From a virus, in IMG/VR virus record IMGVR_UViG_3300034072_000926, positions 167,621-231,620 of that record: a DNA stretch of 64,000 nucleotides, one strand, 5' to 3'. This document shows positions 5,044 through 54,662 of the stretch, in pieces (the stretch's first letter is position 1; each line of letters opens with the position of its first letter). The position numbers were made by a program, and so were the translations under genes. The notes beneath the pieces were generated by a model that searched no databases, was not told where the DNA came from, and saw nothing but the letters and a program-made list of their open reading frames with translations.

Positions 5044-5262
5044 TTGAGCACTCCAGCTGAAGAGGTCATGGATTTACTTCAGGAGTATGCGGACGAGGCA
5101 AGAGCCCTTGAGAAAAGCCTGATTAGAATCGCCTGGTATATGAGAGGATCAGTTGATCTCGATGCTGCGTATAGGATGACATACCGTCAAAGGAAGATGT
5201 CGATGGCTTTGATTGAAGAGAACCTAGATAATACCAGCAAGACCGGTATTATGATGCATTAA
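5044..5262 (+). CDS. Small baseplate hub assembly protein (gp51-like position)
   Basis: A 72-residue protein directly after gp26. The segment WYMRGSVDLDAAYRMTYRQR and the ending ENLDNTSKTGIM resemble the short conserved protein that follows gp26 in many T4-like phages and is annotated there as a hub assembly catalyst. The first codon is uncertain. TTG at 5044 has AAGG only 3 bases upstream, while ATG at 5068 would give 64 residues but has only a weak GAAGAGG. It probably helps hub assembly rather than being a large virion component. The exact equivalence to gp51 is inference from position and size. Confidence 0.55.
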   Translation: MSTPAEEVMDLLQEYADEARALEKSLIRIAWYMRGSVDLDAAYRMTYRQRKMSMALIEENLDNTSKTGIMMH

Positions 5263-5639
5263 AGGGCACCATGCTCTAGGTAGATACCGGCAAGATTGGA
5301 ATCGCGAAGAACATGCCTAAACTCAAGTTCAATACCCTGCGAGAGTTGCTTGAACTGTTCGAAAAGGGTGGCAAGCACCTGGTTATTGATCTTCCAAAGA
5401 CCCTGCGCCTGGTTGATAGCCAACTTGCTATCACCGATGATGACACACTTCTGAATGCCATTATCCTTGGCCCAGACGACTGCCCAGATCAAAGCTGACC
5501 ATTCCGCAATATTGTTGGTCCCCTGGCCGAGGTTCTTCATTGTAAGAGCTTCGGCCTTTTCATTTGGCCTGCAGATTACAATGCAGGAACTCATCTTCCC
5601 TGGGTTGGGCGCACATCCGCCGTCAAAGTAAATTTCCAT
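5259..5639 (-). CDS. rnhA: Ribonuclease HI
   Basis: This 126-residue protein would cleave RNA in RNA:DNA hybrids, for example removing primers during phage replication. The first three RNase H carboxylates are visible: D6 in YFDGGCAPNPGK, E46 in NNIAEWSALIWA and D70 in GDSKLAINQ. The usual fourth site (a His loop followed by N-x-x-A-D) is degenerate: the protein ends RDSNLAGIYLEHGAL, with Gly or Ile where Asp is expected. That residue is the least essential in Escherichia coli RNase HI, so activity is still likely. The stop overlaps the end of the convergent small gene by 4 bases. A TTGACT/TAAGTT promoter places +1 exactly on the ATG. Confidence 0.88.
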   Translation of the reverse strand: MEIYFDGGCAPNPGKMSSCIVICRPNEKAEALTMKNLGQGTNNIAEWSALIWAVVWAKDNGIQKCVIIGDSKLAINQAQGLWKINNQVLATLFEQFKQLSQGIELEFRHVLRDSNLAGIYLEHGAL

Positions 5640-5645
5640 ATCGCA

Positions 5646-5673
5646 AACTTAACATCCTGACTAAAAAAGTCAA
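5646..5673 (-). promoter_or_regulatory. Sigma70-like promoter for rnhA, predicted leaderless
   Basis: On the minus strand TTGACT (5673-5668) and TAAGTT (5651-5646) are separated by 16 bases. Counting seven bases past the -10 hexamer puts +1 at 5639, the A of the rnhA ATG. There is no Shine-Dalgarno, consistent with a leaderless transcript. Confidence 0.5.
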
Positions 5674-5691
5674 TCAGTCGTAATGCTTCCA

Positions 5692-6531
5692 GCCGTTATG
5701 AATTTGTATGATTCGATCTACAATCGCCTACAGCTTTGCTGTAGGGACTACGGTGTTTATCCATGTTGGACAAGCCAACATGTCTGCACACCTTCGCATT
5801 TACCTTCGGTTGAACGCTAGAACTTAAAATAGATTATATGGTCATATCATGAAACATAATGCGATTGATATGGGTTCTAAGAACTCAGGACATATATGTG
5901 ATGTAAAATAAGTGCTCAGGTTCCCTGAAGCACTTCGGACTTGCGTCGCAGAGCAAGCAAGGCCGTTTAATTTGTAAGTAATATTCTATAATCTTCCAGT
6001 CACACTGACTTCCCCCGTTCCCGGGAGAAGGTCAAAAAATATATGAAATGTTTGTATTTTCACAATATGACTGGTGTGGACAATTCGAAGGATCCTAGGT
6101 CTGCCATTATATCCTGCACCTTTTCAGTGCTCATTGCCGCTTCTTTGATACTAACCCACCAGCTGGTGTAGCTTTCTCTACAGGACGGTCTGAAGGTCGT
6201 AACACCTTCAACTCAACGCTTCCTTTGCTCACACCAGCGGCTCAGGAAGCTTGCTTTCTACTTTTCATAGAAAGTCTAGTCTTTGACTAGGGCATCCCAC
6301 TGTTTGGTTCAGTTCGGGATCTACCTAGGTTTCCGCGGTTGAAAATTACCACTTACCAAATCAGATCTACTGATTCGTTAAGCCCGCTCGGGGTTTGAAA
6401 TAGTTTAGAAAGCCACTCCTAAAACTTCTTCCACTTTCCCGACCCTAGCCGCGCCCAAATCCGCGGGGAGGGGGTTAGAGGGCATGATCTGCCAACTCAT
6501 GTGCTTTTTACATATGTTGCCAACCAACGGC
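5692..6531 (+). ncRNA. Candidate large structured noncoding RNA
   Basis: Between rnhA (5639) and the gene ending at 6798 there is no credible ORF. The plus strand instead contains a dense series of hairpins with perfect stems: 5728-5744, 5762-5782, 5912-5933, 5940-5957, 6009-6030 (with one C/A internal mismatch), 6191-6210, 6254-6274, 6276-6290, 6294-6320 (two stacked stems), 6359-6375 and 6380-6396. There is also a 12-base palindrome at 6157-6168. GCCGTT at 5692-5697 could pair with AACGGC at 6526-6531 and close the molecule. A G-U pair in the 6380 stem and the U-tract of the terminator at 6625-6656 both favour the plus strand. Size and style resemble the giant ornate RNAs of phages (GOLLD, ROOL), but I cannot match a family. 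The boundaries are approximate and no promoter was recognised. Confidence 0.55.
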
Positions 6532-6624
6532 GGGATAAATACATATGCCACAAAGCGTTTATTAAATTTGGGTTTGGTGTTTGTATCTGTGGGGATATAA
6601 AGAGGTCTAAATTTTGCGCTGTAT

Positions 6625-6656
6625 GCCCGGGTTGGAGACTTATACTCCTCCCGGGC
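6625..6656 (+). terminator. Rho-independent terminator after the structured RNA
   Basis: GCCCGGG...CCCGGGC arms extended by GGAG/CTCC form a strong hairpin, followed on the plus strand by TATTTTTA. On the minus strand no U-tract follows, so it faces plus-strand transcription and would end the candidate noncoding RNA. The flanking 6532-6624 and 6657-6770 hold no gene; two short hairpins (AATCGT/ACGATT near 6727, AATCAG/CTGATT near 6745) lie in the second stretch. Confidence 0.75.
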
Positions 6657-6770
6657 TATTTTTATGGTTTGTAAAAGCTATAAAGTAGAATCTGCATTCC
6701 GTTAAGGATATTTATAAGCAGACTTAATCGTCAAAACGATTACGAATCAGCTACATCTGATTTCGATCTA

Positions 6771-6791
6771 GGAGCCAGAAAAACTGGCTCC
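6771..6791 (-). terminator. Hairpin terminator after the 275-residue gene
   Basis: GGAGCCAG, a five-A loop and CTGGCTCC form a perfect 8-bp stem. The hairpin lies just downstream of the minus-strand gene ending at 6798, and is followed by TTTAA on the plus strand, so it may act on both strands. Confidence 0.6.
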
Positions 6792-6797
6792 TTTAAC

Positions 6798-7625
6798 TTA
6801 ATACGACTTTCTCTTCGCAATTGCAAATATTTGTCCAGTCTTTGGACGATCAACATCTGCATAACGGATCAAATAGGGTGTCTGACTGTTGCGGATTTCA
6901 CACACCCAAGGAGTAGACGCGATTGCTTCAACGCCACCCTGCTGATGCAACAGTAGGAAGTTCCAGTGGTTGTTGGATTCCAGATTGTAACCGTCGATGA
7001 CCAGAGGGTTTTCGGAATATGGATGATAGATGTGAGTCTGATCCTTGGACTCGATAAAGCGAACATCGTTGAGGATGCTGCGAGGCATCTGAAGATGACG
7101 CTTCGTCACCATATCATGCTGGACCAGAAGGTCGATTGGCTTGCTGTAGAGATCCTGCTCGCCGAACGCATCTTCATTGCGCTTGATCAGCTTACCTGAT
7201 TGTTCCTTGTAGAACTCGAGAATCAAGGTCGCCATATACTTGCGAACAGTAGGATGGATGAGAGCAGGAGAACCGGCGACGCTCATAATGTTGAACATGC
7301 GCTCGTTGAGGAAACGTTCACCCTTAGTATCGCGTCCGAGAAGCATCTTGCGGTGAGGTTCGAGATCACTGGGAAGAGGAGCATCTTCCTTGGCACGTTC
7401 ATAGGGCTTCAAAGAATGACCACCGTAGGCCAACGCAGACCACAGGTTTTCCCAATCCTTATGGAGGGCTAAGAGCGTCTCAGGGAATGTGCGAGCACGA
7501 GGTCCGAGACCTTCGACCAGAGCATTATAGTAGCCCAGCTCTTGCTTCATGAATTCTTTGAAGCGGATTTTGTCTGTTGGATGGACATCGACCATCTCAA
7601 TAATTTCTCGGAATCGCGTCTGCAT
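6798..7625 (-). CDS. Unknown 275-residue protein
   Basis: I do not recognise this protein. It starts at ATG 7625 with an AAGGAG Shine-Dalgarno and ends just before a hairpin terminator. It has no signal peptide or membrane segment. It is soluble and mixed alpha/beta in appearance, with many aromatic residues and a C-terminal part (from about residue 190) suggestive of beta strands. It stands alone, head-to-head with the PD-(D/E)XK nuclease gene that begins at 7709, and has no obvious early promoter. Codon use is like its neighbours. Function cannot be assigned. Confidence 0.7.
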   Translation of the reverse strand: MQTRFREIIEMVDVHPTDKIRFKEFMKQELGYYNALVEGLGPRARTFPETLLALHKDWENLWSALAYGGHSLKPYERAKEDAPLPSDLEPHRKMLLGRDTKGERFLNERMFNIMSVAGSPALIHPTVRKYMATLILEFYKEQSGKLIKRNEDAFGEQDLYSKPIDLLVQHDMVTKRHLQMPRSILNDVRFIESKDQTHIYHPYSENPLVIDGYNLESNNHWNFLLLHQQGGVEAIASTPWVCEIRNSQTPYLIRYADVDRPKTGQIFAIAKRKSY

Positions 7626-10137: not shown

Positions 10138-11010
10138 CTATGAACGGCGATCAACGAACATTCCACACGAGGCTTTGACGTCGAATCCGACGCGAGGTAC
10201 GATACGGCTGCTCGGATGACCGAACGCAGAGGAAAGGTAGTCGAAGTTCCGTTGCAGAACTTCCTCACTAGGTTCCTTACCTTGAGCACTGCTGAAAGGA
10301 TTGTATCGGACAAGATTGAACTTTACATCTAGGTTTCGAACCAAGATAGCCATAATGATTTCTTCGAGAGTTTCCAAGTCATCATTCTCACCCTCAATGA
10401 AAGCCCAATGCAACGTCAGGAGTTGTCCTGTCTTCTGTTGCCATTCGACCATCTTCCAAAGAGCTTCATGAGGGTTCATGGCCTTTGGTAGCCAACGCTT
10501 GCGGAAGTGTTCCTTGAGGCTATAGAGGGAGTAATAGATCTGAGCACCCGAGTCTCCAAAAACGTCATAGAGTGAACGTTCTTCCATCTCCTCGGGCATA
10601 ATCGTGCTGATGTTATATTTGGCCACTAACGCATGTTGTTCTGCAATGCCCTGTAAGGGTTTCTTAACGCCCTCCCAGTCATTTAGCACGTTGGGGTTAG
10701 CAAGCGGTTCGCCGCGCGCCATGAAGTTGTAGTTAACCCTGTGGGCATCATCGATCTCTCGATAATGACGGAACACCTGCAAGGCTTGGAGTTCATATTC
10801 CTCCTTGCTTGCAGGTGTCATCATAGTCTGACGAGTTTGCGTCAGATGACAAAAACGACAAGCCTTATTACAGCCGGAATGACTCGATAGATAGGCGATG
10901 AAGTAATCTTGCTCACGCCTAACATAACGAGCTTCGAGTGCCCCACCATCTTGATGAGGCACCACGAAGTTAACACTCGAGTCTTCCGAACTGTATAGGA
11001 CTTCAGTCAT
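10138..11010 (-). CDS. RlmN-like radical SAM protein
   Basis: A 290-residue protein with the radical SAM cluster motif C47-x3-C51-x2-C54 ([11 protein letters not shown]). It also has MARGEP at about 98-102 (compare GMGEP of RlmN) and C282 in CGMF near the C-terminus (compare CGQL). The order and spacing match the RlmN/Cfr group of RNA adenine C2/C8 methyltransferases, which use the distal Cys as methyl carrier. The second functional Cys of those enzymes, in LCVSS just before the cluster, is replaced by Tyr40 (AYLSS). It lacks much of the RlmN N-terminal domain (usual length 350-390). It overlaps gp46 by 8 bases and ends in TAG, one of only two amber stops here. The substrate is unknown. Confidence 0.8.
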
Positions 11011-14250: not shown

Positions 14251-14442
14251 TTATTCAGGGTATCTAGGACCGAGCCATAATCCATAAGGTCGGTGAGAAT
14301 CCATCTTATCTCGGGTAAGCCAGATATAGCTGACGGTGAAGAATGCGATTTTTATCTCAAATTCCTCTACCTTTTTCCAAGGCTTGAGTAGGAGGCGCCT
14401 AACACGCCTCCTACCAGTAAGACTACAAACTTCTCTACCCAT
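14251..14442 (-). CDS. Small protein coupled to gp55
   Basis: A 63-residue ORF whose ATG overlaps the gp55 stop (TAATG), which is why I accept it. Its N-terminal third is encoded by a perfect 10-bp inverted repeat. The C-terminal part, FEIKIAFFTVSYIWLTRDK followed by a Gly/Pro/Tyr-rich tail, could be a short membrane segment or a beta strand pair. No family recognised. The ORF could alternatively be spurious, with the inverted repeat acting as an RNA element after gp55. Confidence 0.45.
   Translation of the reverse strand: MGREVCSLTGRRRVRRLLLKPWKKVEEFEIKIAFFTVSYIWLTRDKMDSHRPYGLWLGPRYPE
14388..14414. repeat. Perfect 10-bp inverted repeat downstream of gp55
   Basis: GTAGGAGGCG, a 7-base loop, CGCCTCCTAC. 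It is not followed by a U-tract on either strand, so it is not a standard terminator; it may be an mRNA stability element or attenuator between gp55 and gp47. Confidence 0.5.
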
Positions 14443-15317
14443 TAGGTTGACTTCTTAGGAGCGCCGCGACGGACGAGCTTCTTCTGCTCTGGAACTTCGC
14501 CATTCGCAAGAGCCTTCTGAGCAAGGCTGTTGTCAATCTGTCGAGTGATCGAAGGAGTAACGCCGTGCATGACAAGCAGGTCATCACGAATGTTTTGGTT
14601 ACGCTTTTCAAGATTCAGAACACGGGTAAAGGCGTTCGAGACTGTGACGGTGTAATAGGCAAACGGGTTGTCGGAACGTGCTTCATTGAACTGGAGACCA
14701 ACGCTCGACAGCTGAAGCAATGCCTGACTACGCATTTCATCCACGTAGGTGTAACCACGCCAGTTGCCGCGCTGCGAATAGCGTTCAACTAGCTTCATGA
14801 ACATAAGAGCAAGACGATTTGTGGTCTTGCCGTGATCCTGACAAAACTCACCGTTCTCAAGTGCATAGCGCCAGTGCGAACGTCCGACTTCCTTTGCACC
14901 ATCGATTTCAGTTAGGATATAGTGCTTGAATGGTGGGAAGTTGAGGCGAACGTGATTATCAGCGGTGCGCTTTGGATTCTTGACACGACCTTCTTCTAAT
15001 GGAATGTGTTCATATGTCATTACGCGCCATACGATATCTTCGATTAGAATGGTCGATGGATCTACGTCGTCGACTTTAATCTGATGGTTCTTGTAACCGG
15101 CATCCTTGAGTTCTTGCTTCAGAGCGCGGGTCATCTTCTTGGCCTTAGCTTCACGGACTGTCTGGACGAGTTCATCGGTAATTTCATCCAGGCTATCTAC
15201 GATATGGTCATAGGCCGAATACTGTTTATCAACGAAATAGGAATAGGTGTTCTTGGACTTGTGGATCTCAGCTAGGAGTTCCTTGTTGGTCAGATAGTTG
15301 ACCTTTTGAGTTGCCAT
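14442..15317 (-). CDS. gp55: Late-transcription sigma factor gp55
   Basis: A 291-residue protein resembling T4 gp55, the sigma-like subunit that directs host RNA polymerase to late promoters together with gp33 and gp45. The region-2-like core is evident: FNEARSDNPFAYYTVTVSNA followed by FTRVLNLEKRNQN, preceded by GYTYVDEMRSQALLQL. It is longer than T4 gp55 (185), with an extra N-terminal region (about 1-170) and a basic C-terminal tail. It starts at ATG 15317 with GGGAG. CTAAATAT-like motifs before virion genes in this window are its likely targets. Confidence 0.88.
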   Translation of the reverse strand: MATQKVNYLTNKELLAEIHKSKNTYSYFVDKQYSAYDHIVDSLDEITDELVQTVREAKAKKMTRALKQELKDAGYKNHQIKVDDVDPSTILIEDIVWRVMTYEHIPLEEGRVKNPKRTADNHVRLNFPPFKHYILTEIDGAKEVGRSHWRYALENGEFCQDHGKTTNRLALMFMKLVERYSQRGNWRGYTYVDEMRSQALLQLSSVGLQFNEARSDNPFAYYTVTVSNAFTRVLNLEKRNQNIRDDLLVMHGVTPSITRQIDNSLAQKALANGEVPEQKKLVRRGAPKKST

Positions 15318-54551: not shown

Positions 54552-54589
54552 CTACTTTCCTATTCTGTTTGACCTCATAAAATGTTGAG

Positions 54590-54662
54590 CGCGCCTAGCG
54601 AGGCTCGAACTCGCGACCCGCGGATTTAGAGTCCGCTGCTCTACCAACTGAGCTATAAGCGC
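54590..54662 (-). tRNA. tRNA with anticodon CUA (amber suppressor tRNA)
   Basis: The minus strand folds as a complete 73-nt class I tRNA. Acceptor stem GCGCTTA/TAGGCGC is fully paired with one G-U, the D stem is GCTC/GAGC, and the anticodon stem is GCGGA/TCCGC with loop CTCTAAA. T33 is followed by CTA at 34-36. The T stem is GCGAG/CTCGC with loop TTCGAGC. The discriminator is G73 and no CCA is encoded. Anticodon CUA reads UAG. The body resembles ordinary elongator tRNAs (for example tRNALys and some tRNAArg). G73 argues against Cys as the charged amino acid; which amino acid it carries cannot be read from sequence. A promoter 9 bases upstream sets +1 two bases before the mature 5' end. Confidence 0.95.

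Follow-up and report, generated by a model that had tools for sequence, protein, structure and literature searches.

A predicted large structured RNA with an EGFOA-like core, encoded beside RNase HI in T4-like jumbo phages

Results

The window, by which we mean the whole 64 kb stretch of DNA analysed here, spans positions 167621-231620 of a 465,259-base virus record and encodes the T4-like proteins gp26-type baseplate protein, baseplate wedge, SbcC/SbcD-like gp46/47 and RNase HI. Because comparison of the baseplate protein gives Agrobacterium phage Atu_ph07 and Sinorhizobium phage Phosso as the closest isolates, the source is judged to be a T4-like jumbo phage, probably with a soil bacterium as its host. 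At positions 5640-6797 lies a gap of 1.16 kb, the longest ORF-free gap of the window by far (the runner-up is 366 nt), which bears out the first-pass annotation's report of a gene-free region of about 1.1 kb. The neighbourhood contains RNase HI, a resolvase-like protein and SbcC/SbcD-like proteins, and the genes that matter most here are the following.

5259-5639, minus: RNase HI gene, downstream of the RNA
6798-7625, minus: gene for a 275-aa protein of unassigned family, upstream of the RNA; absent beside the RNA in Phosso
14442-15317, minus: late transcription sigma factor, T4 gp55-like (PHROG 12791, E 5.6e-94; T4 gp55 by tblastn, E 6.5e-6)

The 275-aa protein has no relative in Pfam, PHROG or GenBank phages and is kept among related jumbo phages. 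Further along, a radical SAM protein is encoded at 10138-11010 (minus), between the SbcC-like gene and small genes without assignment. The single tRNA of the window (54589-54662, minus) is 48 kb from the RNA region; it has the anticodon CUA, is called tRNA-Pyl by ARAGORN, and is possibly an amber suppressor of the phage.

The many perfect hairpins described in the first-pass annotation are indeed in excess of chance: the gap holds 9 with stems of at least 6 bp, versus 1.8 ± 1.4 in dinucleotide shuffles (none of 200 reaches 9), and 18 with stems of at least 5 bp, versus 6.4. Folding of the gap compared with shuffles gives z scores of -3.9 for the plus strand and -5.6 for the minus strand. Moreover, no short ORF conserved in register was found across the homologues described below, in agreement with the absence of a protein-coding signal that had been claimed.

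Homologues were gathered through the two flanking proteins, as contigs with a relative of RNase HI and/or of the 275-aa protein, and in every contig holding both genes the interval between them is 1.2-1.5 kb. In five other metagenomic jumbo phages (L001, L002, L006, L010 and, assigned by pattern, L026) about 710 nt of this interval, from about 6702 to 5996 in window coordinates, is conserved as in the window; we refer to this as the type A RNA. The conserved part of the RNA stops near 5996, and the sequence at 5640-5995 is not conserved among the homologues. Because L010 and L026 hardly differ in the core and L001 closely resembles the window sequence, the six metagenomic sequences amount to about four effective lineages. 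The 5' end, about 6702, is placed by the promoter, and structure is conserved to 5996. The features of the RNA and its surroundings, in the order of transcription, are as follows.

6743-6765, minus: hairpin H1, AGATCGAnnTCAGATGTAGCTGAnTCG, on the upstream side of the promoter; almost unchanged across type A and type B loci, with one compensatory A-U/U-A pair
6709-6716, minus: late promoter box of the T4 type, TATAAATA, shortly before the RNA; sole exact copy in the 64 kb window
5996-6702, minus: predicted type A large structured ncRNA (six-phage alignment, covariation, and consensus energies of both strands against shuffles)
6678-6688, minus: CUACUUUAUAG element near the predicted 5' end, kept in type A and type B loci
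6625-6656, minus: hairpin H2 (GCCCGGG...CCCGGGC), 3 compensatory pairs; resembles a terminator when read on the plus strand
6511-6547, minus: helix H3, 4 compensatory pairs
6291-6442, minus: 5' domain helices H4-H7, 17 compensatory pairs
6254-6290, minus: hairpins H8 (CUAGUC/GACUAG, invariant) and H9 (5 compensatory pairs), from covariation
6214-6253, minus: hairpin H10 with the near-invariant loop GAGCCGCUGGYRUGAGCAA (covariation; covariance model match in Phosso)
6191-6210, minus: hairpin H11 with the loop GUAACGA (covariation)
6076-6190, minus: EGFOA-like core, comprising single-stranded GACCGUCC, hairpin H12 and a three-way junction E1/E2/E3 (RF02955 match, covariation)
6180-6183, minus: 5' side of the pseudoknot, CUGU
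6101-6104, minus: 3' side of the pseudoknot, GCAG, in the E3 loop (covariation with the 5' side)
5996-6074, minus: 3' terminal helix T1 (CCAGUCA/UGACUGG) enclosing hairpin T2 (6009-6030); conserved, without compensatory changes
5910-5935, minus: possible terminator hairpin, then AUUUUA (from sequence; weak excess over chance)

For the six type A sequences, RNAalifold gave a consensus energy of -180.6 kcal/mol, versus -75.3 ± 5.9 in column shuffles that preserved the gap pattern and conservation class. The curated structure comprises 17 helices and 120 pairs, with standard pairs in 98.6% of 718 cells, and sliding the partners by 1-3 columns lowers pairing to about 35-44%. The first-pass annotation had proposed a covariation analysis on homologous loci; carried out here, it found compensatory double changes at 41 of the 120 pairs, a count that none of 500 shuffles equalled.

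The comparison extends to a cultured phage. A covariance model of the 3' core of the type A RNA, R1, matched Sinorhizobium phage Phosso, an independent fifth lineage, with 80.7 bits (E about 1e-22; 4e-22 in the 12.4 kb around RNase HI). The match is unique within the 469 kb Phosso genome and lies in an unannotated 1014-nt gap immediately upstream of RNase HI; there the H10 stem is mostly rewritten with its pairing retained. The predicted Phosso transcript would span about 229790-230400 of PV764938.1. When Phosso is included, the core alignment has double changes at 20 of 36 pairs and 97.1% of cells paired, values that lean towards pairing because the alignment was fitted to the model. On these alignments, the type A RNA appears to be kept in at least seven related giant viruses, the cultured Phosso included.

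By blastn, the window region had no match in 50,697 phage records, and the L010 copy found the Phosso core among them (E 1e-4). R1 gave no match in Atu_ph07, fENko-Kae01, Munch, 121Q, PA5oct or Vibrio phage 2.275.O. An unannotated 989-nt gap in Atu_ph07 (NC_042013.1, 152997-153985) was a promising candidate but matched neither type A nor type B. Five unrelated contigs came up in a 15-mer scan as well, and 15 more with an 18-mer of the H10 loop, the latter all unrelated and mostly coding. A literature search, with the original EGFOA and large-ncRNA review papers outside its reach, found no description of this RNA.

The late promoter, the asymmetry between G-U and A-C, the strand of the EGFOA match and the consensus energy all place the predicted type A RNA on the minus strand. 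The curated helices contain 43 G-U cells versus 8 A-C cells, a count biased by the choice of helices on the minus strand, and the consensus energy is -180.6 on the minus strand versus -157.6 on the plus strand, where the reverse-complement fold was chosen freely. It is also the minus strand that carries both flanking genes, the TAAATA box and the EGFOA match. Thus the giant structured RNA of the first-pass annotation stands as to structure, with strong comparative support, and falls as to strand, since it had been read on the plus strand with a terminator near 6624-6664, where a hairpin precedes TATTTTTA. The plus strand, too, has a better fold than its shuffles; however, its consensus energy is weaker, A-C cells take the place of G-U, and the promoter box, the EGFOA match and the genes on either side are on the other strand, so that we give a plus-strand RNA ending at this hairpin practically no credence. 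What looks like a terminator is the reverse reading of helix H2 in the minus-strand RNA, the A-rich leader of H2 supplying the T run. The suggested closing helix had to be given up as well: in the inverted repeat 6358-6369/6752-6763, one arm is part of H6 and the other of H1.

Inverted repeats in such number, next to genes for RNase HI, a resolvase-like protein and SbcC/SbcD-like proteins, might instead act as DNA, in a replication origin or a packaging or recombination site. The compensatory changes, however, are mixed with the strand-favouring G-U pairs counted above, loops and single-stranded motifs are conserved along with an RNA-type pseudoknot, and a search of the region found no direct-repeat families or iterons. 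We therefore consider a DNA element very improbable.

Almost every type A or type B locus, and Phosso too, has the TAAATA core of the promoter box at this position. Several structural ORFs of the window are preceded, at 27-36 nt, by [AC]TAAATA, and TAAATA ranks first among the hexamers in front of ORFs (4 versus 0.3 expected). Exact TATAAATA showed no enrichment across the genome; near gene starts the looser [AC]TAAATA is enriched. The phage has both a TATAAATA-type box and a gp55-like sigma factor, as expected for a T4-type late promoter. With a TAAATA box upstream, the same motif before structural genes and a late sigma factor in the window, late transcription from about 6702 is likely. Hairpin H1, which has a single copy in the 465 kb genome, may serve as a 3' element in the upstream gene's mRNA. 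No clear intrinsic terminator was found directly past the type A 3' end, and the RNA could extend to the terminator-like hairpin near 5910.

At the gathering score, Rfam recognizes only a tRNA in the whole window. In 5500-6900, the search against Rfam that the first-pass annotation had also proposed gave EGFOA (RF02955) as the sole meaningful match up to E 10, with GOLLD, ROOL and the intron families unmatched. In each of the six type A phages EGFOA is the top-scoring Rfam family at this position, with 37.5 bits in the window and 34.8-36.1 bits in the others (the gathering score is 37.7), and it reaches 39.0 bits when the search is limited to 261 nt of the window. Across the whole 465 kb genome, the best EGFOA match by far is at the RNA locus (E 5.7e-6; the next has E 1.1). 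Three matches of an EGFOA 17-mer in genome contigs were coding or chance.

Type A shares with EGFOA the single-stranded CCGUC, the E1/E2/E3 three-way junction, the E3 loop AGACCUrG and a covarying 4-bp pseudoknot. In the pseudoknot the tetranucleotide that follows CCGUC (CCGUN in certain EGFOA copies) can pair with the one preceding ACCU, as CUGU/GCAG in type A, CUGA/UCAG in Phosso and CUAG/CUAG in four EGFOA loci, and the register is not freely chosen, because invariant neighbours fix both sides. An RNAalifold pairing of part of this core with far 5' columns was rejected, as E1-E3 covary with Phosso. The EGFOA E3 loop is GUAAAGCUAGACCUGGG; in type A the junction and AGACCUrG are present, with covariation, and the GUAAAGCU part differs (AUAAUGGC). 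The EGFOA model did not find the Phosso RNA, and in the reciprocal search R1 had no match up to E 10 in the EGFOA loci L031-L035, which is why we call the core EGFOA-like rather than a proven EGFOA member. Whereas the EGFOA model is 108 nt long, its type A counterpart is the 3' part of an RNA of ~700 nt. The EGFOA loci examined sit in ORF-free gaps that exceed the motif in length (467 and 791 nt for the complete gaps). Three of them (L031, L034 and L035) have a common GUUAUC...GAUAAC stem downstream of the motif, which suggests that EGFOA RNAs extend beyond the Rfam model.

In four further contigs (L003, L004, L005 and L009) the interval begins with the same ~170 nt as in type A and then continues with a different conserved sequence, type B, of roughly 500-650 nt (L003:4851-5560 and the same place in the others). 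Type B has 41 covarying pairs in four sequences and a consensus energy with z -11.8 on the gene strand versus -7.7 on the other, has no match in Rfam, and is by these predictions a second large structured RNA, unrelated to type A. Its model, R2, found one further copy, with 102.6 bits, in genome G001 (locus L104; core at G001:224734-224873, minus), in another intergenic region away from RNase HI and without the H1/H2 leader. G001 also carries type A at its RNase HI locus, so A and B would be separate RNAs that can take up the same site or coexist.

At every type A or type B RNase H locus, and in Phosso, RNase HI lies downstream of the RNA on the same strand. No strong terminator comes right after the RNA, and the arrangement would suit a very long structured 5' leader regulating RNase HI in cis, as a riboswitch or an RNase-responsive leader. 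In the window, however, the RNA and the start of RNase HI are ~360 nt apart, with no sequence conservation in between, and related phages have whole ORFs in between, including an endonuclease VII-like one, RNase HI then having its own nearby TAAATA box. Type B in G001 is away from RNase HI, and 700 nt would be an exceptional length for a leader. We regard a cis leader as unlikely; the inserted ORFs and the position of type B in G001 suggest that the RNA is independent of RNase HI. The endonuclease VII-like ORF adjoining type B, and the occurrence of type B at two different places, could also mean that the RNA belongs to, or is left over from, a mobile ribozyme element, for example a group I intron with its homing endonuclease. 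Yet no Rfam intron family matches up to E 10, the RNA is located between complete genes and not within one, and type A is beside RNase HI in every case examined, all of which makes a mobile element hardly credible.

Discussion

To our knowledge, only a handful of large structured bacterial or phage RNAs are known (GOLLD, ROOL and OLE). Large phage ncRNAs of the GOLLD/ROOL kind are often located in tRNA islands, and the level of GOLLD rises during lysis. The type A RNA falls within their range, being 600-900 nt long, structured, phage-encoded and ORF-free. GOLLD is often longer than 800 nt, ROOL is about 660 nt, phage-borne and rich in helices and pseudoknots, and both form RNA-only cages (PMC12286853). 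With GOLLD, type A has in common that it is large and phage-borne, with a conserved 3' part and a variable 5' part, and with ROOL its size, phage setting, many helices and a pseudoknot. It matches the Rfam model of neither up to E 10 and is outside any tRNA island, with the window's one tRNA far away and none found at L001, L010 or Phosso; from GOLLD it differs also in its sequence motifs. Thus the likeness to GOLLD and ROOL drawn in the first-pass annotation holds for size and phage setting and fails for membership, and of its two proposals, a new class or a divergent member, the second is not borne out: in place of a GOLLD or ROOL match there is an EGFOA-like 3' core.

Large ORF-less spaces in lytic phages have yielded abundant transcripts elsewhere, namely an ncRNA of about 800 nt in phage ICP1 (PMC7567579) and lncRNAs in phage K (PMC9241854), and type A occupies a space of this kind. 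By blastn of the phage collection, neither the ICP1 ncRNA nor the phage K lncRNAs match type A in sequence.

We think it likely that the locus encodes, on the minus strand, a free-standing structured ncRNA of ~700 nt that is transcribed late and acts in trans as a scaffold or particle. In the mechanism we propose, the gp55-dependent T4-type promoter at 6709-6716 would drive late transcription of the RNA, and the transcript would fold into a string of 5' domains followed by a conserved 3' core of H10, H11 and the pseudoknotted EGFOA-related three-way junction. The folded RNA, serving neither as messenger nor as guide, would then act in trans late in infection as a stable scaffold or particle, alone or with protein, as proposed for GOLLD and ROOL. 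We infer transcription, its lateness, its independence from other genes and action in trans; the scaffold or particle reading is suggested by the size of the RNA, its series of helices, its invariant loops and its pseudoknot, which fit a fold of this kind as in GOLLD and ROOL. A new class of large phage ncRNA working like GOLLD and ROOL is, on this analysis, the best reading. More tentatively, type A may be the first representative of a hitherto undescribed class of large, ornate phage RNAs that self-assemble or form an RNP late in infection, with EGFOA as the conserved pseudoknotted core of a wider superfamily of them and types A and B interchangeable behind a shared leader and promoter; we hold this wider proposal to be possible rather than probable.

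These findings suggest that EGFOA, an orphan motif of 108 nt, belongs to a larger phage RNA, and two such large RNAs can, as predicted for G001, coexist in one jumbo phage. The covariation is firm, the promoter is of the late type and one carrier, Phosso, is cultured on Sinorhizobium meliloti, which now makes the generality of cage formation and of a role late in infection directly testable.
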